Source: Artemia franciscana (taxonomy: Eukaryota; Arthropoda; Branchiopoda; Anostraca; Artemiidae). Taken from it: 64,000 nt of DNA. The stretch is taken from NCBI RefSeq assembly GCF_032884065.1, contig NC_088881.1:2228001-2292000 (forward strand). Reading direction: 5' to 3'. A program made the translations under genes and the position numbers. Under the pieces are notes generated by a model. The model was not told where the DNA came from, did no database searches, and saw nothing but the letters and a program-made list of their open reading frames with translations. This document shows positions 8,707 through 64,000 of this stretch, in pieces; the stretch's first letter is position 1; every line of letters begins with the position of its first letter.

Positions 8707-29322
<20,616 letters not shown>

Positions 29323-37693: not shown

Positions 37694-38331
37694 GGTAAAA
37701 TTCTAGTTTAGTGACTTTTGGCTATCTCAGAGAGGGGTTAGGTTAGGAAAATGAAACTTTCAGGGATGGGTCTAAAGGCTAAAGTATGTCCTTGGACGGT
37801 AGGCTATTTTGAAGTACCTACCTCTACTCCCTCTCTCTCTCTAGAGGGTCCTAACTTTTGATGACCTTAAAAAATATATGTGTTTAGCCTAAAAGTGAAA
37901 CCTTGCAAATAGATCTTCTGCTTGAATGAAGTAAAACAAAATTGTTTTCAGCTTCACACCTTTGCTCAATCCCAATTTACATGGTTTTTAAGATATGCAA
38001 ATACAGTTCCTAAATTTTGAAAAAAAAAACATTCATATGGCTCAGAATTTTACTCAAATAACAGAAATTGCATTTATGGAACTAAAGGCAGAGAAAAAGC
38101 AACTGGTAACTGAAAATTAAGGTAAAATATTGTTTTTTTCAAAATTTCAATAGGTATAGACCTGTCATGTAGGTGAATTTCAGGGCTCTCTAGGGGGAGA
38201 AGGAGTGGAGGTGGGTACTTCAAATACCTTCCTGGGATATACTTTAGCTTGTAGACCCATCCCTGGAAGTTTCATTTTTTTAACCTAACCCCTTCTGAGA
38301 TAGCAAGAAGTCATTCAACTGGAATTTTACC
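37694..38331. mobile_element. Long-TIR MITE, copy 2
   Basis: Same family as the element at 36943: starts GGTAAAATTCTAGTTTAGTG, ends TGGAATTTTACC, with CTCTAGAGGGTCCTAAC and CTCTAGGGGGAGAAGGAG inside. TATGTTTT occurs before the left end and again about 7 bp past the right end, a probable but imperfect target duplication. Confidence 0.75.
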
Positions 38332-42026: not shown

Positions 42027-43060
42027 TTAGACCTTAAACTCCGCCTGTTTGGGAGCACAATTCGTGCCTCTCTGCAGCCAGTCCCAAGCCTGGGCAATGG
42101 AGGAGGGCTGGGCAACGGACTTGCAATCCGCTCCCGAGAACCAGAGGAGTACTCTTCTGGAGAAACGTTCTCTTGCAGCTGAAACGTTAAAGAAGAGCCT
42201 CGGATCTGAGCCCCTACTGACGACGACAAACGCCTGCCCCCGGACACACTTTTTAAAAGCAAACAACAACCTACGATTTGGTTTTTGGAATGTCCACACA
42301 ATGTCCCAACTACAACTCGAGGAGATGCACAGATACCATCTAGACATCTTGGCACTGTCCAAAGTAAGATGGACTGGCTCCGGAGAGCAACAACTTGATG
42401 ACCATTCTGCGATCCTCAACAGCAGCATCGAAAGTAGGCATGAACGAGGAGTTGCGCTCACCATGACGAGGGAAACTTCAAGATCTCTCTTGAAATGGAC
42501 TCCCATATCGTCAAGAATTTTCGTAGTACGTTTCACTTGACGACAAGCAAAATTGTCTGTAGTAGTTTGCTACGCCCCTACTAACGTCGCAGAAGTCGAG
42601 ACCAAAGAAGAATTCTACCACACTCTATAGGGAGTGGTCAATATCATTCCGAAAGATGACATCATGTGTGTTCTCGGCGACATAAACGCCATCGTTGGCA
42701 ACGATGAGTCCTACTGCCCAAAGGCACTCAGTAGGCACGGAATGGGCGTACGTAACGAGAATAGAACGATGCTAATCGACTTTGCAATGGCTAATGATCT
42801 GGTGATAGGATGCAGCCATTTTCCTCATAGAGACGTCCACAAGTATTCATGGACCTCCCATGCAGTTAGAAACCATATAGACCACTGTCTTATCAGCTGG
42901 AAGTTCCGCTCTAATATACAATATGTGAGAGAATATAGAGGTTCCGACGTTGGATCAGATCACAACCTGCTAGTAACTAAATTCTCCCTGAAGTTGAAGA
43001 GGAATGAGAAAAAAATACCCAATTCAGAACCCCTATTTGATTCTGGCAAGCTCAAGGTAT
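42027..43060 (+). mobile_element. LINE endonuclease domain, near-complete but broken
   Basis: One frame from about 42049 reads LRFGFWNVHTMSQLQLEEM, LDILALSKVRWTGSG, RHERGVALTMTRETSRSL, then an in-frame TGA (42538) and VVVCYAPTNVAEVETKEEFY, a TAG (about 42628), MCVLGDINAIVGNDESYCP, HKYSWTSHAVRNHIDHCL and GSDVGSDHNLLVTK. These are the EEP endonuclease motifs (N, GDxNA, SDH). The usual catalytic Glu of SEVRW is Lys here (SKVRW). It is a distinct LINE family from the GTA-tailed one, cut off at GKLKVS. Confidence 0.85.
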
Positions 43061-43061
43061 C

Positions 43062-43690
43062 CTAAAATCATTAGGTACTTCCCCTTTTTTTAAAATCATA
43101 TTCATGATCTCAAGTAACTTATTTCTAACCTCAGAGCCACCATATTTAAGAATTCATTTATCACACTATCAGCACCTGGAGCTTTATTATTTTTTAATCC
43201 TTTTAGTATTGTCGCAAATTCTTCCTGACAAAACAAATCTTCCTTCACATCCAAGGTATCACAAACCTTTTTATTTTCATCTATATCTTTTCCTGCAACT
43301 CTACCTCGGTTTAGCACATTCTCAAAATGTTCCGCCCATCTTTCTTTAACTTTTTCTTTATCACTAATTGTGGCCCCATTTCTATCTTTAACTGGGACTA
43401 GTCTGGACTGACTTCTCCCTTTCAATTTATTAACATGCCAGTATAATATTTTACTATTATGCCGTCTAGCTGCATCTTTCAGATCATCAGCAATTTTATC
43501 AATGGCTTCCACTTCACATCTCCTTAGTTCATATTTTAATTGTGTTCTCCACTTTCTTTACAGTCCTTTTGTTTTCATACGATTTATCACTCAGATAATT
43601 CTTGTACAAATCCCTTCTACTCTCTATTAAACGTAAAACCTTTTCACTAATATTCCTAGTTGCACTTTTAGCACTCTTTCCTAAGACACC
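43062..43690 (-). mobile_element. GTA-tailed LINE fragment upstream of and into RT (minus strand)
   Basis: Minus strand, in order: LRLIESRRDLYKNYLSDKSY, then after a shift IDKIADDLKDAARRHNSKI, LYWHVNKLKGRSQSRLVPVK, KERWAEHFENVLNRGRVAGK, KVCDTLDVKEDLFCQEE, LKGLKNNKAPGADSVINEFL, and after another shift KYGGSEVRNKLLEIMNM and KGEVPNDF. It abuts the plus-strand endonuclease copy tail to tail at about 43061. Confidence 0.82.
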
Positions 43691-44706: not shown

Positions 44707-44830
44707 ATGATTCGTCCTGTTTTACCCCCAATTGCTAAAGAAGTTTTACAAGAAGCTAGCAAAGGCCTTAGAAACATGTCATTTTGTGCTTGGAATTCTG
44801 GAGAGAAGTATCGTGATCATTGGGAGCATG
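44707..44830 (+). CDS. MSRB1: MSRB1 exon 1 (two candidate starts)
   Basis: ATG at 44776 gives MSFC, the conserved start of animal MsrB1, and I prefer it. An in-frame ATG at 44707 adds MIRPVLPPIAKEVLQEASKG then LRN. Both have A at -3. The exon ends CAT-G before donor GTAAGA. If the longer form is made it could alter localisation, but the extension is not a clear mitochondrial presequence. Confidence 0.88.
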
Positions 44831-47800
44831 GTAAGACTTAGTAAACTTGTTAGATGCTTTAGGTGTAGGCTACAGCATTGGCTGATGGGCTCTGTTGCAT
44901 AGTCCAATTTAGAAAAAGGGGAGTCTTTTTCCATTACTTAGGCAGGTAGCGAAAGGTGAACGCACCACTGTAGGTAAGTTATTCTCTTTCCAAATCTAGG
45001 CTACTCATCACTTTCTTTGCAAATTTTATTTAATGCCCTTAAAGTGTCAGCTTGGTCCTGATTAAGCTGTATAGAAAATATTTACCTGAAATTGCAGCTT
45101 GGAGTAACTTAAGGATTATTGGTAAAATTCAAGTTAATTGACTTCTTGCTATCCCAGAAAGGGTTTAGGTTAGGAAAATGAAACTTTCAGGGATGGGTCT
45201 ACAGGCTAAAGTATGTCCTGAGAAGGTATTTTGAAGTACCCACCTCCACTCCTTCTCCCTCTAGAGGGCCCTGAAATTTGCCTACATGACAGGTCTATAC
45301 CTATTGAAATTTTGACAAAACAACATTTTACCTTAATTTTCAGTTACTAGTTGCTCGTTCTCTGCCTTTAGTTCTGAAAATGCAATTCCTGTTATTTGAG
45401 TAGAATTTTGAGCCATATCAATGTTTTTTTTTTCTTCAAAATTTAGGAAATGTATTTGCATATCTTTAAAACCTTATAAATTGGAATTGAGCAAGTTATG
45501 AAGGTGAAAACAATTTTGTTGTACTTCAATTAAGCAGAAGATCTATTTTGTAAGGTTTCACTTTTATAAAACACATATTTTTAAAGGTCATCAAAGGTCA
45601 GGGCCCTCTAGAGGGAGCAGGAGTGGAGGTAGTTGCTTCAAAATACCTTCCCACAACATACTTTAGTCTGTAGATTCATCCCTGAAAGTTTCATTTTCCT
45701 AACCTAAACCCTTTCTGAGATAGCAAGAAGTCAATTAACTAGAATTTTACCAGATTATTTTCTTTAATACTCCAGATTTGATGTTTGGACTGTTTTTGAT
45801 AAAATTTGAGTTTAGCTACTTTTTGCCATCTTGGAATAGGGTTAGCCTTGGTAAGGAAGAGGAAAAGGTCAATGTTCTTTTTACCTGAACAATTGCTTAG
45901 GGTCATGAAATTATTGTTAATAGATGCATTTGAATTTTTAAACATCTTTTCTCTCTTGCAAAACTACTGCAAACTTACTCTTATGGAGTTATTCCAGCCC
46001 AAATATTCTTGTATTTATACATGTAGAATTGCAATCATTTCTGTTTTTGTTGATTGGATATTTGAAATTGCAAATCTGAATAGTTTGCAAACAAATTTGG
46101 GCTATAGGCCTATATTTGCACATTAGGGGGGTGGGGGTAAAGCATAGCATATGTTGAATATGTAAACTAACCATTGCTATATTTAGTATATGCTATGCTT
46201 TACCAACCCCCCCCCCCCCCTAATGTGCAAATATACAATAACTCCATAATGGTGAGTTTGTGGTAGTTTTGCAAGAGAGAAAAGATGTTCAAAAAGTCAA
46301 AAATGCATCTATTAACAATAGTTTCATGACCCTAAACAGTTGTTCAGGTAATAGGAACATTGATCAAGAAAACATTCAGGGATAGGTCTACTGACTAAAG
46401 CATGGGTAAATATTAAGAAGTTTATTATTTATCTGCAAAAAAAGTGAACAGGCAACTAGATGCCATTTTTTATGTTCATTCTGAATATAATAATAGCTTT
46501 TCTTGCTAGGCCTAATTCAATTTAAGCTTTTTTGGATTCTTGAAAATGATTATTCCTTTCTATGTTTTTTTTGTGTATAAAAATGGTTAAAATGTTGGTT
46601 TCATACTTACTATTTCATATAATATTCATTCTTGTTAAAGTTATATAATCCACAAAATTGATTTGTTACAATTAAGTTGGAAAAAACTTCAAAACAATTT
46701 CTCTATTTTTCTATCCACCAAGTTTCTGTTGTCAGCTTTGACATGTGGTGAAACAGTGGTTTTTAAGAAGTCTAACAGAATAAGAAGAAAACAAGGCAGA
46801 TTTGTTTTGATTTTTTTTTATTCAAATTAATCTTGACAAATCAATGTTTCCAAACTATATAACTTTTACAAAATGGATTTATAACAAAATAGTTTGAAAC
46901 AAATGTTATAACCTATTTTTCTGTCCAAAAAATATAGAATAAAATTATTATTTTCAAGGGTCCTAATAGGGTTTGAAATTGAATTTGCAAGAAAAGCAAT
47001 CATTATATTCAGTGATTACTTATAAAATAACATCTAGTGGTATGTTCACTTTATTTGTAGGTCAATAATATAGACTGCTTGATATTTACAGAACATACCA
47101 CTACAGGCAATTTATTTTCTTTCCAAATCTTCTCATCACTTCTTTTACAAATTTTTTTTTAAAGCCCTTAAAGTGTCAGTTTGTTCTGTATTATTTAGTA
47201 AACCTTTACCTGAAATTGCAGCTTGGAGTAATTTAAGGATTATTTTCTTATTTAACTCTAGAGTTGGTGTTTGAACTATTTTTTTTAAATTCTAGTTTAG
47301 CTACTTTTTGCCATCTTGGACAGGGGTTAGCCTTGATAAGGAATACAAAATTTTCAGGGATAGGTCTACAGACTAAAGAATAGGTAAGTATTAAGCAGTT
47401 TGTATTCTTGATCCACAAATAAAGTGAACATATTACTAGATGCCATTTTTATGTTCTTTCTGAATATAATAATTGCTTTTCTTGCATTCAGTTTTCAAGC
47501 CTTTTTTGGTCCCTTGAAAAGAATAATTTCTTTCTATGTTTTTGGTATAAAAAGGATTGTAATGTTTTGTACTTACTCTTTCATATAAAATCCATTTTTG
47601 TTAAAGTTATATAAGCATTGATTTGTCACAATTAAGTTAGATAAAAAATTCAAAACAATTTCTCAATTTTTTCCATCACCATCAACTTTGATATGTTTTT
47701 TCAGATAGGGTAAAGACACCAATGATTCAAAAATTTTTGTAAAAAAAAAACTTTTTCTACTCCAGAAGACTTAATTAGACTTTTGGTTTGAAAAGGGTTT

Positions 47801-50800
47801 AGACATATAGAAAAAAATATCTACAAAGCTAACTATTTGATTAGAAGTTTGAAGTTTTATCAGAAAGAGTACAAAACTCCAATTTTCTTTAGTTGGATTG
47901 TTTCCACCTACAAATTCAACAGAACAAAAAGTTATCTGTTTTTGATGTAAGTTTGAACCCAATTCAACACATGTTGAAAAACTTGGGGAACACTTGTGGG
48001 CAATCCTGGTGGATTCAACATGCCTGTCCTTTTTACTTTATTTCCTTTTCTCATCAAATTTTTTAAATATGTAAATGTATAAAATACTGTTAGATAATAG
48101 AAGCAAAAATCTGAAAAAATTGCCACAAGTATAAGGACAAAATTGGGTAATTGTGTGACCTAGGTCTCTATAATATAGTTTGGGATATAATAGTGTGGTA
48201 TAAGTCTCTTTATAAATGCTACCTGGAATTGCCAGCTTTAAAGATCTAGTAAAGGTTTCTTTATTGTTCACTGTTAAAGTGTTGTCAACATTTGGCCATT
48301 TCAAAGTTAATCTACCAATTTAATCCATTTTAAAAACTCTTGTTTTGACTGTCCTTTGTCTAGAAAGTCCAGAATTCTTGAAATATGCATGTCCTACTTA
48401 AGATTATTAGAAGTTTATGACACCAGAGTTTAACATGTTTTATTAGCATTTTGGGTGGGATAGGAATTGCATGATAATTAGGGAGGGGCTCAGAGAGAAT
48501 ATTTGTAAATTACAGATTAAAATCTATTTGAAAGAAAACATGTATAAAATTTACTAAGAGAGAGTATACTTCAAATCTATTCAGTAATAAATGAATTAGG
48601 GTGTTGTGGTCAACCAGGTCAAATGCTTAAAAATATGAACATAGTATGAGGTCAAGCAGCAGTTCCTCTGATGATAGAAAAATCTAGCATCAAATCAGTA
48701 AAACTACAATTGAAACAATTCAAATGAAATGATGAATTTTTTTTTCATGTGAAATATTATTACAATTAATAATCATCAAAATCTCTCATTGTTGAGAAAA
48801 TACCTGTAATTCAACAACTATGTTTTCATGAGAGGACCCTTTAGTTTCAACACCAATTGTTTCTCATCTGTTTTACATGTTCAGTGAAGTTTCAACAGAG
48901 TCACCTATATTTTGACAGGGCCTGTTGCTGTCTCTTGAAAAATCTGACAAGGTTACTACAAGATATTCTCAAAAGAAATGAATCTCATAATAGAAGCCAA
49001 TATATACATTTGAATTTGGCTGAAGGAACATTTTTAGTCAGTCTGGTATTCCACTACATCAGACAAGAATTTTCAACACTTGGAACATAGTTTTGTCAAT
49101 ATAATATTAGCCACCATTTTAACTTAATTTTTATCAAGAAAAAGGCAATATGGCTACATTTTATAGAAGATCAGATGTATTTTGATGTATTGGTACTGAT
49201 CCCAACTTTTGTTTTGTCAAAAAATACAAGTAAGGATGGTTGGAAAATTACATAGCTAAAAAATTGTTGAGAGCTCATTTTGTGTCAAAAACAGGAAATT
49301 GATTGAATTGAATATTCTTTTCTTATCTGGGTGTATTGGATATAGTGTCCATTTTGCATTGTTGAAATATTATGAAAGCTTCAATAGATGGTGTTCCAAG
49401 TCACAACTAAGCAAATTTATCCTGTTTTGAAAGAAAATTTTGACAGTGGTTCCAAAATTACACTGTCAAATCATTGGTGCCTTTACCCTATTGGTGAAAC
49501 AGTGGTTTTTAAGTAGTCTAAGAGAATAAGAAGATAAGAGGCAGATTTGTTTAAATTCTTTTTATTCAATTTAATCTTAACAAATCAATGCTTCCAGGCT
49601 ATTACAATTTTTACAAAAGGGATTTATAATGAAATAGTAAGCTTGAAACAAATGTTATAACCCATTTTTATATCCAAAAAGTATAGAATAAAATTATTAT
49701 TTTCAAGGGTTCTAATAGGGCTTGAAATTGAATTTGCAAGAAAGGCAATTATTATATTCAGAAAGAGCTTATAAAATGGCATCTAGCAGTATGTTCACTT
49801 TATATGTAAGTCAATAACATGAAATACTCAGTATTTATTAAACACACCACTACAGGCATTTTTTTCTCTTTGCAAATGTACTAATCACTTCCTTTGCAAT
49901 TTTATTTGCAAATGGAGTAAAATTTTTGCTGTAATTTTATTGCCAATTTAGATCCCTCAAGGTTTCAGTTAGGTCCTTATTATAAAATTAAGTAAATATT
50001 TACAACTTATTTCAAATACTAAGCTTTATGACAGATGGCTAGATAAGTTCAATGGATAAAGGGTGAGAGACTGACGAAAATTATATTTCTTGGCCAATCA
50101 TATGTGGCCAAAAAAGATGATTGTCCCTTGGGTGGGAGGAGATTATAAGTAAGGATATTAGGGAAATCAGGTACCTCTTGAAAAGGATACTAGGGAACCT
50201 CTTGGGAGGGTTTAAAAAGCTTTAAATATGCTATATTAGAATAGAGGAGGAGCATACATAGCTGTATTGGGTTTGGGTTGCTTAATGCTACAGTAAATTG
50301 TTAGCAGTAGTCAAATAGTAAATATTGGTATAAACATAGAATTAAGGCTATTGAGAAGGAAACATGTTAAGAAAATAATTCTTACTTCATAATATGCATA
50401 AAATTTGTAGTTAACACATTTTGAGTGTGTTTCCACTTTTGTTTATCCCCAACCTCCCAATATCTAAACATATAGGCTAGCCCAAATTATTTATATTCCA
50501 TGTATTTTGCCATGTATTAATTTAATTCAATTCAAATTCATTTTATTTAAAAAACATGTGATGGACAGAGCCAATTATTAGTTTTTATTGTCATGCACAC
50601 ACAAAAATCCGTCAACAAGTCAAAATTAACATTCACAAAATTATAATATATACAATTAACAATAATAGTTGTCACATATACACGAAAATAAGTTGACAAG
50701 TATACATAAAATTATAATATATACAATTAACAACAATAATCTGGATTAAAAAGTCGACCCAGCATTAAAAAACTTAACAACTTAACAAATTGAATTGAGT

Positions 50801-53800
50801 AGAAGTTTCCATTTAGCATTTTGCTATGATAAAAGAAGAAAGTGAAGAAATTGAACAGGTTCAGAAGAGATCACTACAAATCATCTACAGAAATTTATAT
50901 TTGGTTTATATTGAAGTTTCCATTTGGTATTTTGGCATTTGGCATTCCGCTATGATAAAAAGAAGAAAGTGAAGAAATTGAACAGGTTCAGAAGAGATCA
51001 CTACAAATCATCTACAGAAGTTTCCATTTAGCATTTCAATATGATAAAAGAAGAAAGTGAAGAAATTGAACAGGTTCAGAAAAGATCACAAGAAATCATC
51101 TACAGAAGTTTCCATTTGGCATTTTGCATTTTGGCGTTTGGCATTTCGCTATGATAAAAGAAGAAAGTGAAGATAATAAACGGGTTCAGAAGAGATCACT
51201 ACAAGTCATCTACATAAGTTTCCATTTGGTATTTTGGCATTTGGCATTCCCCTATGATAAAAGAAGAAAGTGAAGAGATTGAACAGGTTCAGAAGAGATC
51301 ACTACAAATCATCTACAGAAGTTTCCATTTAACATTTCGCTATGATAAAAGAAGAAAGTGAAGAAATTGAACAGGTTCAGAAAAGATCACAAGAAATCAT
51401 CTACAGAAGTTTCCATTTGGCATTCTCAAGAAATACAAAAATGCATGAGGAATATATAATTTTGGCTGTATATTTGCCCTTGGAGGGAGGGGTCAGGGAT
51501 AGATTGTATTGCAACACCTTCAAAATGTGTTTTTTGAACTACTTTAAATATTCTAAAACACTTACTTAGCCTATATTGTGATATTTTGGCTGGCCTCTCA
51601 AGAAGAAAGCACAATAAAATTCTCGGTAATATTCTAGTCAATGGGCCTCTTGCTATCATGGAATGTAGTTGAGTTAGGTGAAGGGAACTTTTAGAAATGA
51701 ATCCAGTGCTCAATACATATAGAATACTCGTTGAAATTCACTATATTCAATGTTCAATACATTGAATATTCAATTCAAACATTTCAATACATATAGAAGC
51801 GTGTTTCCAAGCTACTATATTTACCCTTTTCTAATTTCTAGGGCTTAAAAAATTGTATAAATGACAGGTCTATAGGCTACCTGTCTGAATTCTGACTAAA
51901 AAAAAAACATTTTACCTTAATTTTGAGGGTACTCACATTTTAATTCGACCTCAGCAGTAGTTAAACTAATACTAAGATAGCAAAGAAATATGAAAAAAGA
52001 GATTGAAAACCCTAAATTCTGATATAAATGCACTTTATATTTGGTTCAGGATGAAATTCTGATTCTAAAGATATGTTGATTTCTTGCTATATCAGAGTAC
52101 CACTTTGAATTTTTAGTCTCTTTTTCATTTAAAATATGTAGATTTGGATTATATATTCTGCCATTAGAGGGTAGTATGGTACAGTAAACTGATGTACTTT
52201 AGGAAAAATATTAGCATATACTTTAGAATTTTTTAAAGTAGTTTCTAGAATTTGGTAAAGTTCTAGTTTAGGGAATTTTCTTATGAAGTAGGCCTAGTTT
52301 AGCCAGGCAAATGAAACTTGCAGGAATGCATTTAGAGCCTTAATGCAGAATCAAAGCTTAATTTGAGTAACAGTTTTAAAGTTACATAATGAATTATAGT
52401 TTTTTCTCTAGATTATGGGGAGGGGCAAATATCCCCCTCTTTTTTCTCCATGGACTCTTTGTTGAAGAAGTCCTTTGGTTATCTTCTTTTTTTTCGATTA
52501 ATTTCTGTTCGTTTTTAATTTTTGTTGTTCTTTTGATTAGTTAATAAAAGGAATATTTAGAAAGCTTTTTTCAGTTTTTCCCTTAAGAATTAAGATTTTG
52601 GCTTGCTATTTAAATTTTTAACAAAATTTTGCAACAAATTTTCATAATAATTGTACTTTGAATGGATGTGCACAGGGAATTTTATCCAAACCTGGACTTA
52701 AAATCTACATAATTTTTGGACTTCCTGAAACCAGTATGACCCTTATACTCTTGCAATCTTAAGTATAAACAAATATGAATTGACTATTTCAAATAAGAAT
52801 CTTATTGTGTTATATATTGGTTTAGCTGGGTGTTTGTTTAAATAAATACATTTGGAGCTCATTTATAAAAAAGTTCTAATTTGTTGTATAAAAGATAACA
52901 AAGACGTCAAGAATCAATAGAGATATCCAGTTGAGGTTCCACTGGCTCTGAACTTTAATTGGGGTGTCTTCACAAACACTAAAAACAAGAAGAACAATAG
53001 GGAATTTCTCAAGACAGTGGGAAACAAATTAGAATGAATATTTCGGCCCTATGTCCAAGGGCTGTCCTCAGCAATACGAATAAGAAAAAAAAAACAACTT
53101 TCAAGAGGATAGAACTAAAATGAACAGTTTTTCAAAACAGTCCTAGTTGAACCTTGCTGAGGTAAGGATGCCGGGACTGTTTTGAAAAACTGTTCATTTT
53201 AGTTTTATCCTCTTGTTTTTTTTTTCTTATTCATATTGCTGAGGACAGCCCTTGGACATAGGGCCAAAATATTCATTCTAATTTGTTTCCCACTGTCTTG
53301 AGAAATTCCCTATTGCTCTTCTTGTTTTTAGTGTTTTAGCCAAAATATCCATTCTAATTTGTTTCCCACTGTCTTGAGAAATTCCCTATTATTCTTCTTG
53401 TTTCTAGTGTTTGTGATGGAAAGGCAGTGTGGTCTTTGTTGTTGTTGGTGTCTTCACAGTCTGGAATTTTAACCAGATCAAGATTAAACAAAATATTTCA
53501 CACAAAGAATCAATACAACCTAATTTTTTAATGCATTTTGATTTATGAGCCTCCCATGGTCTTGCCAAGTCAAATTTTAGAATCTACTTGCTCTCTCCAT
53601 CCAAGATTCACACAGTTTCAAGGTCCATTAGGCTGATAATTATACCTTTGACCATATATGACATATTGCAGATATCCCCTTTTGACAACCTGAGTGCACA
53701 TATTGTCTTGATTTAGTTTAACATCCCCTTTAACATTTCCAAGATGTTTCAACTTAATGTCTAAGCTGTTCCTAAGAAATTACAGGTATGTCCTTTTGGA

Positions 53801-56800
53801 AACCTGGATCCACATACTGTCTTCTGATTAGGTCAATGTGCTACTCAATATTCTCTAAAAGTCTCAATCAAAGACACTTAGCCACTCCTAACATATTGTA
53901 GACTAACTCTTTTTTGATAGCCTGTAAGACTGAAATGTCTTTTGGTCTAGTTTTACACCTTCCTCAAAATGGCTGGACATTTTTTGCTAAGTACCCTTAG
54001 CTGTTCTAAGATATTGTACACCCTTTTGACAACCTGGATGCGTTTAGTTTCTTTTGGTTAAATCAGCATCTCCTGAAAGTTTTAACTTAATACTCTTAGC
54101 CTTTCATGAGATATGGTTGATATGCTCTTTTTACAATGTATATGGCCTTAGTTTGTTTTAATTTAGCTCAACATTCCCTGAAAGTTTCACCTTTATACTC
54201 TTCATAGTATTCACCTTAATAGTCTTCTGATTAGGTCAATATGCTCCCCAATATTCCCTAAAAGTTTCAACCAAATACACTTAGCCATTCCTAACATATT
54301 ATGGACTAACTCTTTTTTGACAGCCTGTAAGAATGAAATGTCTTTTGGTCTAGTTTTACATCTACCTCAAAATGGCTGGAAATTTTTTGCTTAGTACCCT
54401 TAGCTGTTCTGAGATATTGCATATCCTTTTGACAACCTAGATGCATTTAGTTTCTTTTGATTAAATCAACATCTCCTGAAAGTTTCAACTTGATACTCTT
54501 AGCCTTTCATGAGATGTGGTTGATATGCTCTTTTGACAACCTACATGGCCTTAGTTTGTTTTGATTAAGTTCAACATCCACCTCAACATTCCCTGAAAGT
54601 TTCACCTTTATGCTCTTAGCCTTTTTTGGTGACTCAGAACTCAACTGAACTTAAAAAAAACAATTCAAGGAAAAATTATTATCATATGGTCTCAATATTC
54701 AATTACTGTTAAAGATAGGGCTCAATTCAATTTAGACACTTGTCATAATGATGTCCGAGCTTGCTAATACTCTCTTTAGTAGATTCTGCCCCAAGACCTC
54801 CACCTCTTTTCTGGTTTGGTTGATAGTGGAATCAACTAGATTTACCTAAGCCTAACTTGAAAATAACATTTCATAACTGGAACAAATTGTAACCAAGTCT
54901 ATGGATTAGCGACCCCACTTGACAACAAAGTTGCCAGTCAGATTATTGCCCTTGCTGCATAAATACAAATTTTCATTTTTTTAATTGAATCCGTTTTTTC
55001 TAATCAAATTCGTAATTTGTTAACTGAACGTGTTTCTAACAGAACCAACCTTTTCAGTTAAACTTGACAAAAACTAAGTAGATATTGTCTTTTCTTTAAC
55101 CTGATATGTAGCTTCCAATAAGAGGACGTCATTTAGCCACCTCATTTTTCTTGATTAAAAAAAGGACATCAATAGCTACCTCATGTTTCTTGACAGGTTT
55201 TTACGCATGCTCAAAATGTGAAAACCCGCTATTCTCAAGCCGCACGAAGTTTGCCCACCATTCACCCTGGCCTTCATTTACTGATACAGTTAAACCTGAT
55301 TCATTAAGTAAGGTTCCTGATGGAAGTCCACTAGCATTGAAGGTAAGATATAAACAAGTTCAATACGTTCTAAGACCATACTGGCTATACATGATGTATG
55401 AAACCAAGAAAGGAAAGGATATAATAAATAAAAAAAGTTAAATAGGTGAAAAAAGCAGGATTTTTCAGCTAGTAGCAAAATATGAAGACGAAAATCGAGC
55501 AAATATTTCGACAAGGACTTCCGCCAAGTCGTCCTCAGTGCTAAAAAAAAAACAAAAAAAACAATAAAATCTAACATTTTGAAGTGAATTGTGCAAGTGA
55601 ATTTTCCTCTTGCATAATTGACTTCAAAAGGTTAGATTTTATAGTTGTTTTTTGTTGTTTTTTTGTGCACTGAGGACGACTTGGCGGAGATCCTTGTCGA
55701 AATATTGGCTTGATTTACGTCTTCATATTTTTCTACTGGCTGACAAAATCCTCGTTTTTTCACTTATTTGATTTTTTTTTCATTTATTATATGCTTTCAT
55801 AAGCAAGTTGGTTTCATAAGCAAGTTCAAGTCTGATAATTTAGAAAACTACTGCTACTTGGTTATGGAATTACTATACTGTTGCTTGGTTATAGAATTAC
55901 TACACTTTAGGTTGCTTTCACACTGCACAAGTAAATTGGCTATGTTGTGTGATCAAGTTACACTACGCTAAGTTTAATCTTTCACGCTTGATCAAACTCT
56001 TTCATATTAGCCAACGTGAAAGCTCATAAAACCATAAAAGCTCCTCTAAAATATTAGCCAAAGCTCATAAAACCATAAAAGCTCCTCTAAAATCATCACA
56101 AGTCATCTATTCCAAAATTTTAAATATGGAATTGAGGGTTGGGATTCAAACCCTGATAATGGTCCACTAGCAATGAAGGATTCATTTCCAAAAATATAGA
56201 AAGTTGCTGCTGGGCTGTGGAATCATTACACTGTAAGTGGCTTTCAGACTACTTACGTAATTTGCTCTGCTAAGCGATTAAGTTACGTTAAGCATAGCCT
56301 TTAATGCTTGAGCAAATCCTTACACACCAAGCTAAAGTAAAAACTTAAAAACCATCAGGATCCTTGTCTAAAATCATCATAAGCATGTTCAAAAATTCAA
56401 AATGTGGAATGTTGATGGGGATTCAAGGTCTGGTAATGATCTAGCATTGATGGAACACATGCATTGAAGCTTCTGTTTCTCAAAAAAAAAACTACTGCCA
56501 TCCCAACTTTATATGACTGAAGGGTTTTAACTACACCCTCTATATGGCCAGGCTGGGTATCAGGGTTAATAGTCCTCACGTTCAAAAACAAAATACGTAA
56601 AGATTGTTTCATTGTCAGAAAACATACCCGAGTGCATTCCATAGTAATCATTTGTGAAGTATAATCACATCCGAGACTATTCTTTATCGATTCGAAAATC
56701 ATCGTTTTCTATGAGGATAAGTGACTGGCCCAGAGTGCAACCCTCCTCCTTTATTCCTGGCTTGAGACAGGCTGCTTATCAAGGCCCCAAAGAGCCTGGA

Positions 56801-59800
56801 TCCTTATAGGTGATGCTTAAGTGAAAACAATCAGATTTTATTGACAGATTGGTTATATTTCAGGTGAAATTTACTATTAGTACAAATCTACCATTTTTCA
56901 ACCATCAACGAAGTGAAATTCTTTTTAGCTGCGTTGTTTTCCTCTAATCTCACTTTATAGTTTTACTGGCTATGAGCCTTGCATTTCTGATTACTCGAGT
57001 GCTTTTTCAAGGATTTAAAAGTGTTTTACGCCAATTTACACTGAGTTAGAAACGTTCAGTTCAGGATCCTTGTCTAAAATCGTCATAAGCATGTTCAAAA
57101 ATTCAAAATGTGGAATGTAGATAGGGATTCAAGCCCTGGTAATGATCTAGCATTGATGAAACACTGGCATTTTTTTATTTCTCAAAAAAAACTACTGCTG
57201 CTGGGATGTGGAATTATTGTGCTTTAGTATTTATGTTCTTTCCTCCAAATATCAAGCTCTTTACTTTTTACTTCAAACATAGGCTGTTAAAAAAAGACTT
57301 GGTTCAATCATACTTTGTGGGGCTATAATGAAAAAAGGTTTGTGTGGTTAATCTTTCTTTCTTTCTAATCTTTCTTTGTGTGGTTAACCATCTGTGACCA
57401 AGCGAAAAGCAGGTCATCTCTGAATGGGATGGAACAGCGGAACCCCTGTTCTCAGTGCCATCTGTCTGTCTGTCTCTTTTATTCTATTCTATTGTGTTCT
57501 CTTTGTTTGTTAACTCGTTTTTTAATTGCTATTAGTTTGTTTGTTGGCAAAATAGTATAAACCAAAACAGCATATTGTGTACATAGAAGTGGACATTATA
57601 GATGCATACATGTCCTGATTCTTTGGAAGAGGGGGGGGGGGTGTAATTTTATGTCACTACTATTCTAGGCTAGGTTTTGACCAATCTTGAAGGGCAGACC
57701 CTTCTCTAGAAAACTCTTTGAATTCTCTCAGCAAGTTGTCAATGTAATTAAAACAATCAATGAATAGTAAATACTCAAGAAAATCCCCCTCTTCTCTTCT
57801 CTAACAAAATTTTCAAACAGGGTACTAAGGTAAGCTGTGAGAGAATGCCATGATTTCTAGTTAAAAGCAACAAGTTTCTATGTGCAATCTCTGCTTCAGG
57901 AAGAAGAAAAGCCAGGATCTTTGATCTAGTTCTTATGTTTACAGATATAATTGCTACAGTATATTCTTTTTTAGAAGAATAAAATCTTCTTTTAGACGAA
58001 GAAGAAGTGTTCATATTAAAAGGGTCTTGTTTAAAAAAAATATGGAAATATACTAACCTGTGAATTTTGAGCATTGAATATTTAATTTTGAATATTTGAG
58101 CCTTGAGGCTTACCGCTTCTTGTTTGCCCTGCAACTGACAGGTATGAATTGTAGTTCAAAGACTTTTTAAGCACTGCTTTTTCCACTGATGTAAATAGAC
58201 CAAATGTGTGTAGGCCTTGTGGAGACTCCCAGTGACCACCTCTGTATAGTTATGTCTTGACCGCATTTTAGTCACCCTGGCCAATATTTGCCCCCGACTA
58301 CAGCAGCAATTATCTATCCTGTTCATAATTTATTGTGTTGAGCATTGTCCAACTTTCAAGTATGAAATTTGTGATTGACCAATCAGAATCAAGGTATAAT
58401 TCTTTTGGGAAAGATGGAAGCGTGAAGCAGGGAACAAAATAGTGCTGGCACAAGGTTTTTAACCAATGTCTTGTCATTTTAATGTCCAGCTTTTGTAATA
58501 GGTGTGATACCTTAAAATCAAGACAAACTCCGTTGTAATTTATATATCTTGACTTTTTTTAATCAACAGATATGACTATGGTTTGGCTCCAGCGAGAATT
58601 CTTACAGGAGGAAGCAAATAAATTATGCTGTGTGCAATCTAATTTTTGGCTGGATTTATGCTAATTTTGAAATTAGCCAACTGAAACATTTGTTAGAATT
58701 TAATAGTATCTAAAATTTAATTTAGTTTTGTTTGTGATTTTTTTTTAGGTAGCCTGTGGCAAATGTGGAAACAGTCTGGGTCATGAGTTTGTGAAAGATG
58801 GCCCTGGTGGAAAATCACGATTCTGAATATTCAGTCACTCCTTGAAATTTATACCTCATAAAGGTAAGTAAACAAAACGCCAACCTCTACTTGTCCTATA
58901 TTGGATTAATGCAAGAGCAAAATAGCGAAAATATTTACAACTGTCTTTACTTTTCTAGTAAAGACAAATTTTTTTGGAAATTTTTGTTGAAACTAGTTTT
59001 GCTTCTTTTTTTTTACTCTGGCTTTAAATTTTATGTAAATTAAAGCCTTAGCTCACCTGTATTTTTTTTTTTTTTGAAACTTAGATAATGGAAATTCTGG
59101 GGGAGGTAGCGTGTCACCTCTATTTACGCAAATACTGGCAATGCTTTCCCCTTAAAGTTAAAAGAAGGAAGCTCTAGGAAGTGTTCTGAAAACTAAGATT
59201 TTGAACTGGCTAATTTTCAATAATTAAGAATTTTAGTACAATTAAAATATAATTCAATAAGTAATAAGTTATAATTATAATTAATTATTTATGTATATAT
59301 AATAATTAATTATAATAATTAATTATAATTAATTATTTAATTATATATTATTTATTTATTTTAATTATAATTAATTATAATTATAATTAATAAGTCAATA
59401 AGTTTTATATTTATTTCATAGAGCGTGTTTATCTGTGCTAGGATAAATTAGAAAGAACTGTAATATTGATGACATAGTTTACATACGTTTACCATTTGCC
59501 AAGTATGAGATCACTAAACAAATCATCCGTAACCACAGGGAGTAGTAAAAGAGTTTAGTGGGTACGCGTTGCACCGGAATTTTGTGGTGTTATGCATGCA
59601 CCTGCACCGCTCAAGGTGCAGGTTCAGCATTCATGCAATTGCACCAGGCGGAGGCCAGTCTGGTCAAAATGATAAAAGACTTGAAAATTGGAACTCCGTC
59701 ATCACTTAAAATGTACAACCAGAGAAGCAAGTCACGAATATCTTTCCAAATAAATGTTATTCAAAATATAATTTTTTCTTATATTTTATTATGAATAATT

Positions 59801-61568
59801 TTATGTCTCTTATTACTGTTTAGAGTATGAAGCTAAAATTGTAAAAATAAACACGTTTTGATAGCTATTAAAATACATCCATTTTTTAACTATGTGTAGT
59901 CCAGTGTTATGAAAAATAATAAAATTTAGCTTGAAAATTTATTTTGTTATGAATAATTTTGTGTCTCTTATTATTATTTTGAGTATGAAGCTAAAATTGT
60001 AAAAATAAATACGTTTTGATAGTTTTTAAAATACATCCATTTTTTAACCGTGCGTAGTCCAGCGTTATAAAAAATAATAAAAAGGGGTACACATACCGAT
60101 ATTGTCCGACCGATATTGTCGGGCTGATATGAGGTTCAGTGTCATTATCGGATATTGGCAGGCAAGTCCTATTGGTTATTGGTCGATATTTTTTTATGCG
60201 CAACTTGTCCAGAAGATGGCACCAGATTTCCTAGGGTAATTTTGCTTGTCCAGTCATTTGGAGTGGAGAATTGAAAAGTGAGACATGGCTTTGTATTGGG
60301 AATGGTGATGTTTTTAAGGTGAAAAGTTACTTTAGGTGTTTGTAGCCTACGTGTTTTGACATATTTGACGTGTATTTGACAATATATGGTATATTCTTTA
60401 TTTCGAGAGGAGGGGGCGATTCTCACACGCTCTCCCACCAAGATTTTAAGAAATGCTAACTTTAGGAAAAGCATATTTGCATGAAAATACCCATCACATT
60501 CTTAACATTTATGGGGTGTCAGTTGTCCTTTACAACACCTCGGTTGTCCTTCCCAAGCATGAAGACAAATTTCAAGAAAACATGATTTTTTTTAAATGGG
60601 TCTTCCATTGCAGTAATACATGATATTTCTTGCGATTCATTTAATAGTTCCTATGTGGTTTCAATAAAGCGCTTTAAAAATTATCATAAAAAGTGGAAAG
60701 AGCGGCGCCAAACCATCCTTTATTTATTGTAATTTGTGCTTGCCTGAAGTTTCAACGTTGCTGTTCACTTTCATGTAAAAAGAAAATTTCTTTTTTTATT
60801 CTAGCCCTTTCTTTCCAAGGATTTTTGATATAGTAGACAGTATACTACTACTAACAACTCACTGCATCACCAAGCCTCCAAGACAACTGCGCACGCTCTT
60901 CTTGCACTCCAATCTATTCAAAGCTTCTTTTACCCCATCTTGTGAATTTTAACTTCCTTTAAGTCCTTCATTATGACCTGTTTTCGCCCCATTGGGGGAC
61001 AACGTGCTTCTCGTTTGGACCCAGATGGATGCCCAAAAAGTAAAATTTTTAATATTCAGTAAAACGTGGTCTAAGCTGTCTTTCATTACCACATTTTTGT
61101 ATAGGTTATTGTTTAATAAACAATATGGCTCTCCCAGGGACGTGCAAAGAGAGTGGCGGGGGGGGTGGCGGGGGCTAAGACTCCCCTACCACCAGAATCC
61201 AGACAGTTCATTCAAATTTTCGGCAACTCTTATTCAAATTGTCAAATAAGATTTTTTTTTGTGACTCGCCACCGAACAAACAAATTCGTCCGTACGTGCC
61301 TGGGCTCTCTGAAAATTCTTCATCTCTATTTTTGGGTCCCATAGTTAATGTTATATTTTGGTGTCATTTGCGAGAATATTACAGGCCTTGTGTTCAAAGA
61401 CTAATTAATGTGTCGACGGTTAAAAACTTTATCTTTCACGTTGAAGAAGGTGACCCCTCCCCCTCCCCTAAAAAGAGACATATTTTTCGATTAGTGGGCA
61501 GTCTACTCAACAATCTTTTTTCTGCAGACTCCGCAGATTCTGATATTTTAAGAAGAGTCAAAAATTAG
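44707..61568 (+). CDS. MSRB1: Selenoprotein methionine-R-sulfoxide reductase B1 (MSRB1/SelR), four exons
   Basis: MsrB1 reduces methionine-R-sulfoxide in proteins, in cytosol and nucleus, using a selenocysteine. Exons join 44707 (or 44776)-44830, 55197-55342, 58749-58863 and 61528-61568. Phases 1, 0, 1 agree and all introns are GT-AG. From the second Met the product is 118 residues (human MSRB1: 116): MSFCAWNSGEKYRDHWEHG, FYACSKCENPLFSSRTKF, AHHSPWPSFTDTVKPDS, then ALKVACGKCGNSLGHEF, DGPGGKSRF-U-IFSHSLKF, ending DILRRVKN. Zinc ligands are Cys23/26 and Cys70/73. Sec93 is encoded by TGA at 58824-58826. Cys4, proposed as resolving residue in mammals, is kept. The reading frame continues past TGA for 25 residues with family-typical IFSxSLKF, and a SECIS follows in the 3' UTR, so TGA is decoded as Sec. 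The upstream ATG would add 23 residues. Confidence 0.94.
45121..45751. mobile_element. Long-TIR MITE (Mutator-like), copy 3, in MSRB1 intron 1
   Basis: Starts GGTAAAATTCAAGTTAATTG, ends AACTAGAATTTTACC, with CCCTCTAGAGGGCCCTGAAA and GGGCCCTCTAGAGGGAGCAG inside. The flanks are AGGATTATT (left) and AGATTATT (right, one base lost). An unoccupied relative of the target lies at about 47210-47260 (GGAGTAATTTAAGGATTATT then TTCTTATTTAACTC), which confirms the insertion point and the 9-bp duplication. Confidence 0.85.
45790..46395. mobile_element. Inverted-repeat element with poly-C/poly-G centre
   Basis: Left arm about 45870-46145 and right arm about 46175-46380 are complementary: GGGTCATGAAATTATTGTTA with AACAATAGTTTCATGACCC, CTCTCTTGCAAAACTACTG with TAGTTTTGCAAGAGAGA, and TATTTGCACATTAGGGGGGT with a C-run then TAATGTGCAAATATA. 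It is a snap-back element within a larger repeated block also seen at 47090-47400. Non-coding. Confidence 0.75.
46430..47060. mobile_element. Snap-back repeat element, intact copy
   Basis: The left arm (AAGTGAACAGGCAACTAGAT, TGAATATAATAATAGCTTTT) and right arm (AAGCAATCATTATATTCAG, ATCTAGTGGTATGTTCACTT) are diverged reverse complements flanking a centre with GTGGTGAAACAGTGGTTTT. A second copy at 47415-49815 is split by the transposon at 47708-49488. Confidence 0.7.
47415..49815. mobile_element. Second copy of the snap-back element, split by an insertion
   Basis: Left part 47415-47707 (AAGTGAACATATTACTAGAT onward) and right part about 49489-49815 (GGTGAAACAGTGGTTTTTAA onward to ATCTAGCAGTATGTTCACTT) correspond to the intact copy at 46430-47060. 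Between them lies the TA-flanked element. Confidence 0.7.
47708..49488. mobile_element. 1.78-kb DNA transposon with 20-bp TIRs, TA target duplication
   Basis: Left terminus GGGTAAAGACACCAATGATT. The right terminus, read inward on the other strand, is GGGTAAAGGCACCAATGATT (19 of 20 identical). TA precedes the left end (47706-47707) and follows the right end (49489-49490). The largest frames (minus 48038-48304; 77 codons at 48857) show no transposase motif, so it is probably nonautonomous. The superfamily is not clear; a TA duplication is compatible with a Tc1/mariner-like relative. Confidence 0.72.
50030..50305 (+). mobile_element. GTA-tailed LINE 3' end fragment
   Basis: Reads RKLYFLANHMWPKKM, then an interrupted GRV-KALNMLY region and LGLGCLMLQ, followed by TTGTTAGCAGTAGTC. 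It matches the C-terminal block of the family at 16.7, 29.1, 32.5 and 60.9 kb. Old and broken by stops. Confidence 0.6.
50797..51424. repeat. Second array of satellite B in MSRB1 intron 1
   Basis: Six to seven units with the same phrases as 18095-23145 (GATAAAAGAAGAAAGTGAAG, GAACAGGTTCAGAAGAGATC, ATCATCTACAGAAGTTTCCA), same strand orientation, about 27 kb away. The boundaries are sharp, at about 50797 (TAGAAGTTTCCATTTAGC) and 51424 (TTTGGCATTC). Confidence 0.93.
51425..52970. other. MSRB1 intron 1, AT-rich, diverged MITE-like phrases only
   Basis: GGTAATATTCTAGTCAATGG (51627) and GGTAAAGTTCTAGTTTAGGG (52254) resemble the left end of the long-TIR MITE family, but the rest is too diverged to delimit copies. 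No exon seen. Confidence 0.4.
52974..53450. mobile_element. Snap-back hairpin element with partly duplicated right arm
   Basis: The arms 52974-53146 and 53170-53337 are near-perfect reverse complements (CAATAGGGAATTTCTCAAGA, ATTAGAATGAATATTTCGGC, AAGGGCTGTCCTCAGCAATA, AAATGAACAGTTTTTCAAAA). The outer part of the right arm is repeated directly at 53346-53411. It ends near GGCAGTGTGGTCTTTG. High arm identity suggests a fairly young copy. Confidence 0.85.
53640..54640. repeat. Degenerate tandem repeat, about 100-120 bp units plus a 400-bp duplication
   Basis: Recurrent phrases: TTTTGACAACCTGGATG, CTGAAAGTTTCAACTT, ACTCTTAGCCTTTCATGAGA, TAGTTTTACACCTTCCTCAA. The block near 54070 recurs near 54471 (about 400 bp later) with few changes, and the shorter unit is visible throughout. 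No coding content. Confidence 0.75.
55197..55342 (+). CDS. MSRB1: MSRB1 exon 2
   Basis: Acceptor TTCTTGACAG and donor GTAAGA bound 146 nt. Completes the split Gly codon, then FYACSKCENPLFSSRTKF, AHHSPWPSFTDTVKPDSL and SKVPDGSPLALK. It holds the first zinc CxxC (CSKC), and the LFSS and SPWPSF motifs typical of MsrB enzymes. Phase 0 at its end. Confidence 0.95.
55440..55768. mobile_element. Snap-back hairpin element just downstream of MSRB1 exon 2
   Basis: The arms 55440-55545 and about 55665-55768 pair (AATATGAAGACGAAAATCGA with CTTGATTTACGTCTTCATAT; ATATTTCGACAAGGACTTCC with GATCCTTGTCGAAATATT; GCCAAGTCGTCCTCAGTGC with GCACTGAGGACGACTTGGC). The inner loop also pairs around TAAAATCTAACATTTTGAAG. 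It starts only about 100 bp after the exon 2 donor. Confidence 0.82.
55800..57220. repeat. Diverged repeat units in MSRB1 intron 2
   Basis: Three copies of a block with CATCATAAGCATGTTCAAAA, ATTCAAAATGTGGAATG and GGTAATGATCTAGCATTGAT lie near 56095-56180, 56365-56460 and 57060-57160. Further shared phrases (CTGGGATGTGGAATTATT, GGTTGCTTTCACACTG) are upstream. Confidence 0.6.
56470..56605 (-). mobile_element. LINE endonuclease N-terminal scrap (minus strand)
   Basis: Reads LRILFLNVRTINPDTQPGHI then EGVVKTLQSYKVGMAVV, matching the start of a LINE EEP endonuclease (NVRTM...TQPGHIE). Only the first 40 residues remain. Confidence 0.6.
57380..57440 (+). mobile_element. LINE scrap
   Basis: Reads TKRKAGHL, stop, MGWN, matching the KRKAGRPRLGWED block of the GTA-tailed LINE. 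A similar remnant (KQQVISEWGGKKS) is at 32370. Too short to delimit well. Confidence 0.35.
57441..58748. other. MSRB1 intron 2 remainder
   Basis: AT-rich, with a short G run near 57632 and a CTGT repeat near 57465. A 119-codon minus-strand frame (57775-58134) has no recognisable domain. No exon supported. Confidence 0.4.
58749..58863 (+). CDS. MSRB1: MSRB1 exon 3, contains the selenocysteine TGA
   Basis: Acceptor TTTTTTTTAG and donor GTAAGT bound 115 nt: VACGKCGNSLGHEFVKDG, PGGKSRF, TGA (58824-58826), IFSHSLKFIPHK and G of a split codon. CGKC is the second zinc CxxC and GHEF a core MsrB motif. The residue at the TGA is Sec or Cys in all active MsrB proteins. Coding similarity continues unbroken on both sides, which excludes a normal stop. 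Confidence 0.96.
59260..59410. repeat. TAATTA low-complexity tract
   Basis: Dense alternation of TAATTATAATTAATTATT-type words, without coding content. Confidence 0.85.
59585..59655. other. Strong stem-loop in MSRB1 intron 3
   Basis: CCTGCACC-GCTCAA-GGTGCAGG forms a perfect 8-bp hairpin. Outer blocks GCATG and GGTG also pair across it, giving a long interrupted stem. It is GC-rich against an AT-rich intron. It lacks the ATGA/GA quartet and is not a SECIS. Confidence 0.6.
59790..60081. repeat. Tandem duplication, period about 159 bp
   Basis: ATGAATAATTTTATGTCTCT through GAGTATGAAGCTAAAATTGT, ACGTTTTGATAG and AAAATACATCCATTTTTTAA occur at about 59790-59920 and again at about 59949-60075 with a few changes. 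Non-coding. Confidence 0.85.
60838..60975 (-). mobile_element. GTA-tailed LINE 3' end fragment (minus strand)
   Basis: Minus strand: after decayed sequence it reads VKEALNRLECKKSVRSCLGG, then GTGATGCAGTGAGTTGTTAG and TAGTAGTAT. It matches the family tail seen four times on the plus strand. Lies in MSRB1 intron 3. Confidence 0.7.
61528..61568 (+). CDS. MSRB1: MSRB1 exon 4 (C-terminus and stop)
   Basis: A strong acceptor (AATCTTTTTTCTGCAG) opens 41 coding nt that complete a GAC codon, then SADSDILRRVKN and TAG (61566-61568). This C-terminal tail is variable across the family, so the assignment rests on acceptor strength, phase and the SECIS 124 nt downstream of the stop. Weaker alternative acceptors (59538, 60809) would give different short tails with no SECIS close behind. 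Confidence 0.8.
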
Positions 61569-61666
61569 AAACGCTTGCAGAGATTATAATGACCTTTTTT
61601 CTTGCAGAGGTCAAACAAGTTTCTGGGGGTGAAGAGTAAATGTTTTTTACCGTAACATAGGCACAG

Positions 61667-61764
61667 ATGAACTGCAACATTAAGTGAGGAGATGAAATGG
61701 GAACACGAAAGCCCCCCGTGGATGTGTTCGCGTTGATTGATTATCGCTTTTAAGTGCAGTTTAT
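61667..61764 (+). promoter_or_regulatory. SECIS element in the MSRB1 3' UTR
   Basis: The selenocysteine insertion element recruits SBP2 and EFsec to recode UGA. Quartet: ATGA at 61692-61695 opposite TGAT at 61734-61737, giving the tandem G-A/A-G pairs plus U-U. Helix II: 61696-61706 pairs with 61724-61734, 10 of 11 positions (one G-G mismatch at 61700/61730). Apical loop GAAAGCCCCCCGTGGAT (61707-61723) has the conserved unpaired AA at its 5' side. Helix I: AACTGCA (61670-61676) pairs perfectly with TGCAGTT (61755-61761), extended by wobble pairs and an inner TTAA pair, with an internal loop below the quartet. It lies about 200 nt past the Sec codon in spliced RNA, within the usual working range. 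Confidence 0.93.
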
Positions 61765-61907
61765 CAATTTTGGATTGTTTGTTATGCTTTAGTATTTTAA
61801 TCTTGTCCCAGTTTTGCATTTGTTCCTTGTTGTTTCTAGCAGATATAAAGGTAGTATTTGAACCAACAAACACGAGCCCATCCTGTTTATCATAGCTGCC
61901 CATAGGT

Positions 61908-62272
61908 TAGTCTTGGAGGACGTTATTTGAAGTGATTTTGTAGGATTCATCCCCTCTCCCCTCCTTTCGTGGCTAATAATGCCACGAAAGGAGGTGGCAA
62001 ACTTATCGGATACAAAATCAACTTGTAATGTTTACAGTTGTAGTTGTAGTGATAGGTCTGGGAGGACGTTAATAAATTTGTTTTAGATGATTCACTGAAT
62101 GCTCAAACGAATGATAGAAATGTGCTGGAAAAGGCCCAGTATCTTCTTAAAAATACCCAAGCAGGAACTGTTGATGCCCTGAGAAATCTGGATAATTGAA
62201 TCTGGATAGTCTTGGAGGACGTTCTTTGAACTGATTTTGTAGGATTCATCCCCTCCCCCCTCCTTTCGTGAA
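61908..62272. repeat. Direct repeat pair of about 62 bp
   Basis: TAGTCTTGGAGGACGTTATT, TGATTTTGTAGGATTCATCC and CCCCTCCTTTCGTG at about 61911-61971 recur at about 62209-62270 with about four changes. A partial third copy (GGGAGGACGTTAATAAATTT) is at about 62060. Confidence 0.85.
61960..61994. other. Perfect 14-bp stem-loop in the MSRB1 3' UTR
   Basis: CCTCCTTTCGTGGC (61960-61973), loop TAATAAT, then the exact complement GCCACGAAAGGAGG (61981-61994). The left half belongs to a 60-bp direct repeat, and only the first copy has the complementary arm. Confidence 0.85.
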
Positions 62273-64000
62273 GGTATGTAGACTGGGAACATCAAAAGAC
62301 TAACTACTTAAGTTCATAATGCGAAATTTGAAAGAGGTCTTCAGTAATAGCTACTCATCATTTTGTGTGTGCTCAAAAGTGTCAATTCATGAAAATGTAA
62401 GGAGGGGGGGGGGGCAAATGTATTTGCCAAAATCTAGTCTGGGGCAATTTTATTGCTCTTATACATTTTTTCAAATACCAAAAAAAAGGTTCTTTCAGTG
62501 AAAATGCCAAAAAAAAGGAATATTTCAAAATATTGAAGGGGAGTCTACGGGGACAAAGTCCTCCACCCCTGTGTGTACTTATTAATGTTTTTGAACCGAA
62601 AACTATTTGCCTTCTAATGCTTCAACATAACTAGTTTTCCTTCTAGCCGGTAATTACACACTAAGGTTACACATAAACTCAACCCTCCAAAATCAAATGA
62701 AATTCTCTCTAAAAAAAATGCTTGGGTTTGTGTTTACTGGTATATACCCTTTATTTTTATTTACCATTATTCGAAACACATTTTCAATTATGTTCCTATT
62801 AAGCTCAGTAAAATTCTAAACAAATAATTTGATAATAATGGTAACTTCAGTCAAACACAACACAGACCTTTAAACCCATTTTCGATACCTTGAAAAACCT
62901 AAATCTCCATTATTCTAAACAGGCTCAGAATAGAATGAAGTTTAACTCATAAGGAGGGTATTGATTCGTTGTTTATTCTTTGGTCGCAAACAAATAAAGT
63001 TAATTATTTCAGTAGAATCTAGTAACATAACAACAATTTCTCAAAAACTGTTTTAGCATTGAACTTATTTCGGTTTTGGATGACCTGGCTACTATTGAAC
63101 AGCTGAAGATCGTATACCACAAATAAAAATTTATTAAAATAAAACACACAATAAAACAAAATAGCCCCCATTTACTTATAATGTATACAGAGCTGTATAC
63201 AGGAGTGTGCCCGATTAACCCTCCCCCCCCTTCCGAAGTGTGTCTGATTCGTTCTCATATTTAAAAAAAGGCGGGTATTTTTATTCCCCCCCCCCCGTAA
63301 AAAGCAAGGTAATTACCTGGCAAGGTATTTAAGCAGTTCATACAGTTAGATCATACTCAAAACCGTTAGATATTTAGGGCTGGAGACGGCATTCCACGAA
63401 ATGATGTTTTTGCCTGCGTCTCCCCCTTCCCGCCTCTTCTGCAGAACAAAAATTCTGAATTTGGCTATATACATGTTAACACAGTACAAAAAAAAAGTTG
63501 GATCTAGGTTGTAGTTGCATATGATGTAATCTCAAGATGCGCTTGAACACCTGGAAAGAAGATAAACTTGATTATACTATCAGAGTAACAACTTATTCAT
63601 ATGGCTGCAATCGATGTCTTGAAAACTTTTCTTCATACTACCATTATGTTGGTGGCGCCATTTTCACTCTAAACTTAGGGGTGTATGTACAAATTTGTTT
63701 AGGGGTGGACGAATCATTCAAATATTAAAAATCAGGCACCTAGCCGGAAATACAACGATACTCCGGGCCCTAAAGCCCAATATACATTATGGCTTTATCG
63801 GGCCGAGTGAAAAAAAAAAACTTTTCGTCCGTTCAATTTAATTTGTCATGAAAAAGCTACTTTACATCCGCCTTATTTGTCTTCTGAGTCTTAGGGCGCC
63901 AATGAAGGCGGGAACTGCCAGAAAAAAAAAGAACACTGGTGAAGTGCCCCCTCGAAGATTTTGAAAAATACTAATTTTTTAGATTTTCATCAAAAGAGAT
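62096..64000. other. Downstream of MSRB1: nothing recognised
   Basis: AT-rich DNA with G/C homopolymer runs (62402, 63222, 63285) and only short open frames (60-67 codons) lacking any recognisable domain. No element termini identified. Confidence 0.45.

Follow-up and report, generated by a model that had tools for sequence, protein, structure and literature searches.

Methionine-R-sulfoxide reduction via selenocysteine (Sec) is the established function of MsrB1 (SelR). MsrB2, MsrB3 and bacterial MsrB, which belong to the same SelR family, are of the Cys type.

Selenoprotein MsrB appears to be animal-specific, and shrimp possess many selenoprotein genes (PMC2375036); the Sec position in MsrB1 is Sec95 (PMC2901347). 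A tabulation of selenoproteins from invertebrates has SelR in each of its six columns (PMC3473315); 20 selenoproteins are given for a centipede (PMC4244043), and, among crustaceans, 16 for Daphnia and 17 for Lepeophtheirus, with 0 for two mites (PMC5330540). MSRB1 is listed with the selenoproteins known in other Paraneoptera, with a Cys form in grape phylloxera, and both Sec and Cys forms of MSRB1 are found among insects (PMC7376646); SelR of D. melanogaster is of the Cys type (PMC2500217).

We analyzed a 64-kb stretch of DNA (the window) and found in it what is, with a probability of about 0.93, an intact animal nuclear gene for selenoprotein MsrB1 (SelR), whose UGA would be read as Sec via a SECIS element in the 3′ UTR. 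An animal host is suggested by the MsrB1 subfamily, the introns, an SRPRB exon, and LINE-like fragments judged by eye. The gene shares with mammalian MsrB1 (2kv1, which we take to be the mouse protein, and 3mao, presumably the human one) the SelR domain, both CxxC pairs, a predicted catalytic Sec in the same column, the start MSFC (as in 2kv1), and a SECIS-like element in the 3′ region. It differs from mammalian MsrB1 in the sequence of its short C-terminal tail, in having introns of 10.4, 3.4, and 2.7 kb, a possible upstream in-frame start, and more than one candidate last exon. Similarity to MsrB2, MsrB3, and bacterial MsrB is much weaker (E 4.3e-16 or weaker), and these carry Cys at the catalytic position, whereas the window gene has UGA, the predicted Sec, there. 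The human MsrB1 gene likewise has four exons (PMC2901347), and arthropod MSRB1, likened here by description, belongs to the same family (PMC7376646).

The initial annotation treated a Sec form as informative about which arthropod lineages have kept Sec decoding. Its novelty was overstated, given the MSRB1 of Paraneoptera (PMC7376646) and the 16 and 17 selenoproteins of crustaceans (PMC5330540). Sec-MsrB1 is an already known animal selenoprotein, and the window gene is a further member. Should our reading be correct, the host is a Sec-decoding species; the locus alone does not settle which animal lineages kept Sec, in part because Sec-MsrB1 is already known in invertebrates. The example also illustrates that a small selenoprotein with long introns is recognizable from raw sequence by the combination of an exon chain, a catalytic TGA, and a SECIS. 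Such genes are often misannotated: for vertebrate selenoprotein genes, good annotation is reported in 11% of cases for Ensembl and in 5% for GenBank, while RefSeq, with a dedicated pipeline, has 77% correct (PMC12822975).

Exon chain and identity of the product

The four exons proposed in the initial annotation (44707–44830, 55197–55342, 58749–58863, and 61528–61568) are all present, have GT–AG borders, and join in frame, the coding exons spanning ~17 kb (Table 1). The product had been given as 118 residues long, and this length is indeed obtained when translation starts at 44776 (MSFC...), but the start quoted with it, 44707, yields 141 residues including Sec. As judged from the alignment, ATG 44776 is the more likely start, because similarity to 2kv1 begins exactly at MSFC; an in-frame stop is found upstream of ATG 44707. 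With the last exon in form A of Table 1, the sole stops of the spliced frame from 44776 are the TGA at codon 93 and the terminal TAG at codon 119. Exon 1 is surrounded by three pairs of inverted repeats.

Table 1. Features assigned to the predicted MsrB1 gene, with positions in the window.
Feature	Position	Strand	Signals and matches
Possible in-frame N-terminal extension, 23 codons (MIRPVLPPIAKEVLQEASKGLRN), or 5′ UTR	44707..44775	+	upstream ATG
Coding exon 1 (MSFCAWNSGEKYRDHWEHG)	44776..44830	+	donor GTAAGA, phase-1 junction; tblastn match
Coding exon 2, first zinc CxxC pair CSKC	55197..55342	+	acceptor TTGACAG, donor GTAAGA
Coding exon 3, second CxxC pair CGKC, SRF-U-IFSHSLKFIPHK	58749..58863	+	acceptor TTTTTTTTTAG, donor GTAAGT
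TGA, predicted catalytic Sec residue (codon 93 when counted from 44776)	58824..58826	+	
Candidate exon 4, form A: DSADSDILRRVKN, then stop	61528..61568	+	acceptor TTTTTTCTGCAG
Candidate exon 4, form B: EVKQVSGGEE, then stop	61608..61639	+	acceptor CCTTTTTTCTTGCAG
SECIS-like hairpin	61670..61761	+	descriptor, folding, Rfam SECIS_1 sub-threshold; core 61692–61737
AATAAA, candidate polyadenylation signal, first one 3′ of the SECIS-like hairpin	62071..62076	+	

The Pfam and structure searches were run with the product carrying the 23-residue extension and the form B tail. The predicted product matched the Pfam SelR domain (PF01641) with 79.4 bits (cut-off 24.9) and E 2.7e-22. Among solved structures, the best match was the MsrB1 chain 2kv1 (E 3.9e-41, residues 24–131 of the 138-residue query), followed by 3mao (3.8e-35), MsrB3 (4.3e-16), and then bacterial MsrB, with MsrB2 at 5.5e-11. 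By these sequence comparisons, the predicted product resembles MsrB1 more than it does either MsrB2 or MsrB3. Pattern searches for its relatives gave 29 matches in prokaryote contigs and one in viral contigs, none of which (0 of 29 and 0 of 1) was confirmed, the patterns being such that they demand close matches.

In the tblastn comparison of the 2kv1 letters with the window, the matches to exon 1 (44776–44832, E 0.015, 47% identity to residues 1–19), exon 2 (55187–55345, E 4e-17), and exon 3 (58749–58868, E 1e-14, spanning the TGA) are co-linear and lie on one strand; the remaining 11 out of 14 matches have E of at least 1.8. The CxxC cysteines C23, C26, C70, and C73 (numbered from MSFC) are aligned with CAKC and CGKC of 2kv1, in agreement with the earlier description of both pairs, predicted to be zinc sites, as conserved.

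The in-frame TGA and the SECIS-like hairpin

In the alignment with 2kv1, which has Cys at the Sec position, the TGA falls on this Cys, and its initial placement at the catalytic Sec position of the family stands. The claim that family similarity runs on past the TGA is borne out as well: eight out of ten residues 3′ of it are identical to mouse MsrB1 (2kv1), and the similarity reaches the end of exon 3. As a control, the ten codons after each of the 2546 TGAs on both strands of the window were translated and compared to mouse MsrB1, which gave eight matches at one TGA (58824), four at ten others, and fewer at all the rest. The ten residues before the TGA, compared without gaps, match mouse at four positions, a value tied with other TGAs and hence not distinctive; the ungapped score is weak because mouse has one extra residue in that stretch, and the gapped alignments of the structure search and of tblastn cover the residues preceding the TGA.

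Downstream of the TGA, the follow-up revealed a SECIS-like hairpin that had been absent from the initial annotation. Its stems comprise an outer one of 7 bp (AACTGCA/TGCAGTT), helix I (AAGTGA/TCGCTT), and helix II of 11 nt with one mismatch (61697–61707/61723–61733); in the core, ATGAA (61692–61696) stands opposite TGAT (61734–61737), and the apical AA is at 61708–61709. The features by which eukaryotic SECIS elements are recognized, namely, a UGAN/NGAN core, an apical AA or CC 11 nt further, and helices I and II, are all found here. The resemblance to the eukaryotic SECIS model (RF00031) thus includes the common register of AUGA, AA, and UGAU, both helices, and an alignment over the full length of the model, but the hairpin scores under the cut-off, and its C-rich apical loop could form no more than a weak additional helix. 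The computed fold has –28.7 kcal/mol (z –3.58), and none of 200 shuffles was equally stable. Although the helices are retained in the computed fold, its three standard pairs within the core are shifted by one position relative to the SECIS register; the folding program is unable to draw the non-standard pairs of a SECIS core.

At gathering scores, the Rfam search of the whole window produced no matches, and SECIS_1 was not listed when the whole window was searched at E ≤ 10. The hairpin appeared in the search of 58700–64000 (5.3 kb, all families), where SECIS_1 (RF00031) was aligned at full length with 19.1 bits and E 5.8, below the gathering cut-off of 35, among eight mostly chance matches, two of which scored above it. 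Since Rfam showed the hairpin in this search only, a descriptor and folding were applied.

With loose thresholds, the descriptor gave a great many matches; the tighter thresholds were set with knowledge of the candidate, 21/13 being its own scores. At 18/10, the whole window contains two matches on the plus strand (55585 and 61693), both retained at 21/13, and 0 on the minus strand. Across 60 shuffles of the window, scanned on one strand, the mean number of matches was 0.33 for the 18/10 thresholds and 0.017 for 21/13, and when the 600-nt 3′ stretch was shuffled 2000 times, 21/13 was never reached; these shuffles understate the hairpin background, because a second real match exists at 55585. 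That match, a hairpin in intron 2 (55571–55636), scores 22/15, above the 3′ candidate, and is probably a chance occurrence or a small inverted-repeat element. It was rejected as the SECIS, being 5′ of the TGA and intronic, so that it would be spliced out.

The 3′ candidate lies downstream of both favored stops. If the message is spliced as predicted, the distance from the UGA to the hairpin is 193 nt with the acceptor at 61528 or 113 nt with that at 61608; both values exceed the minimum distance between UGA and SECIS, given as 51 to 111 nt (PMC2901347). As read from the sequence, it is the combination of the hairpin, its location, and the TGA that makes the case for a SECIS.

The top match to 2kv1, the TGA in the catalytic Sec/Cys column, and the SECIS-like hairpin downstream support the identification of the locus as selenoprotein MSRB1 made in the initial annotation. 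From the exon chain, the zinc cysteines, the TGA position, and the hairpin with its SECIS core, all present in the sequence, we infer a gene that is expressed in a host with Sec machinery. The four coding exons over ~17 kb would be spliced together, the SECIS hairpin in the 3′ UTR would recruit Sec factors, and the ribosome would insert Sec at UGA codon 93, translation ending at the stop of the last exon. In the folded protein, zinc would be held by the two CxxC pairs, and Sec would reduce methionine-R-sulfoxide.

Two other explanations of the TGA have to be weighed against this reading. A pseudogene or decaying copy, with a former Cys codon turned into TGA, could be argued from the tandem repeats and the dispersed-repeat copy (45121–45752) that the introns contain; but the spliced frame has no frameshift or further stop, GT–AG is intact at the junctions, the residues 3′ of the TGA are conserved, and a SECIS-like hairpin is placed where a selenoprotein gene needs one, which makes decay highly improbable. 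The UGA might also be a true stop that ends a 92-residue protein, since termination is the default meaning of UGA and any selenoprotein message is expected to yield a truncated product to some extent. Such a protein, however, would be missing the catalytic residue as well as the conserved residues that follow it, whereas the similarity extends to the end of exon 3, and we consider termination as the sole outcome extremely improbable.

Choice of the last exon

The last exon of the initial annotation, 61528–61568, is open in frame and has GT–AG borders, but its choice is ambiguous, since 61608–61639 or, less likely, an earlier acceptor also fits. Applied to the region from 59000 to 61690, a filter of at least 12 pyrimidines out of 17 was passed by nine acceptor candidates (61528, 61537, 61608, 59085, 59422, 59824, 60805, 61025, and 61345). 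The AG at 61537 would merely shorten form A. The six earlier acceptors (59085 to 61345) are rated lower than 61528 and 61608 on account of their distance from the hairpin.

Both form A and form B hold the reading frame and retain the hairpin. Form B, instead of or besides form A, is a real contender to which we give somewhat less than even odds. Its acceptor is as pyrimidine-rich as that of form A (12/17 each), its product, with the tail EVKQVSGGEE, has 115 residues from MSFC, near the 116 of mammals, and, compared without gaps to a provisional mouse tail sequence, it scores +2, with –8 for form A. On the other hand, against the five tail residues KGKEA of 2kv1 form A scores 0 and form B –5. 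Neither tail score is decisive, because the tails of MsrB1 proteins are short and under little constraint. The acceptor at 61528 is favored by the tendency of splicing to pick the first AG behind a good pyrimidine tract; the six further acceptors earlier in intron 3, with a better tract at 60805 (14/17), also weigh against a simple preference for form B. It is a rather unlikely, though conceivable, extension of these alternatives that the acceptors at 61528 and 61608 produce two Sec-MsrB1 isoforms that differ in their tails, with the spacing of 193 or 113 nt tuning the efficiency of Sec insertion, and that the upstream ATG adds a third, N-extended form.

Unspliced reading on from exon 3, which yields just PHKGK and a stop, was rejected as the main form, because the hairpin would then be ~2.9 kb 3′ of the UGA. 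AATAAA, besides the candidate signal of Table 1, is also present seven times within intron 3.

Other features of the window

No tRNA genes were found in the 64-kb window. In a Pfam search of eight open frames, seven gave no match, LINE-like fragments (judged by eye) among them. An open frame of 376 codons at 28008–29138 on the plus strand resembles hAT-type transposases by eye, with no Pfam match at 0.001.

Repeats are found both within and outside the MsrB1 gene. A satellite with a unit of ~110 bp in some 73 copies occupies positions 1–8038, where a second period, 326 bp or roughly three units, was also detected. Outside the gene, a tandem unit of 88/103 bp makes up a large array (18289–23147), and it recurs as a small array in intron 1 (50936–51425). 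The dispersed-repeat segment 45121–45752 in intron 1 is an inverted copy, 87% identical, of 37693–38331, which has another inverted copy (85%) at 36945–37555. Two inverted copies of ~1.36 kb, 96% identical to each other (9701–11060 and 12732–14089), flank a segment that includes an (AT)n array (11081–11292); this pair looks like a long hairpin or a two-ended element.

Upstream of the gene, positions 42032–42111 on the plus strand resemble the type-P1 twister ribozyme (Rfam RF03160, 46.5 bits with a gathering score of 67.2, E 3.9e-7 over the window), with the conserved core largely intact in the alignment as judged by eye. This sequence extends over the beginning of an open frame similar, by eye and with no Pfam match, to a LINE endonuclease (42031–42540 and 42631–43065), and it is possibly the self-cleaving 5′ end of a retrotransposon.

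An exon of SRPRB (signal recognition particle receptor beta) was identified on the minus strand at 24689–25033 (PF09439, E 9.1e-6), and a second SRPRB exon, judged by eye, perhaps lies inside 8703–8882 on the same strand.
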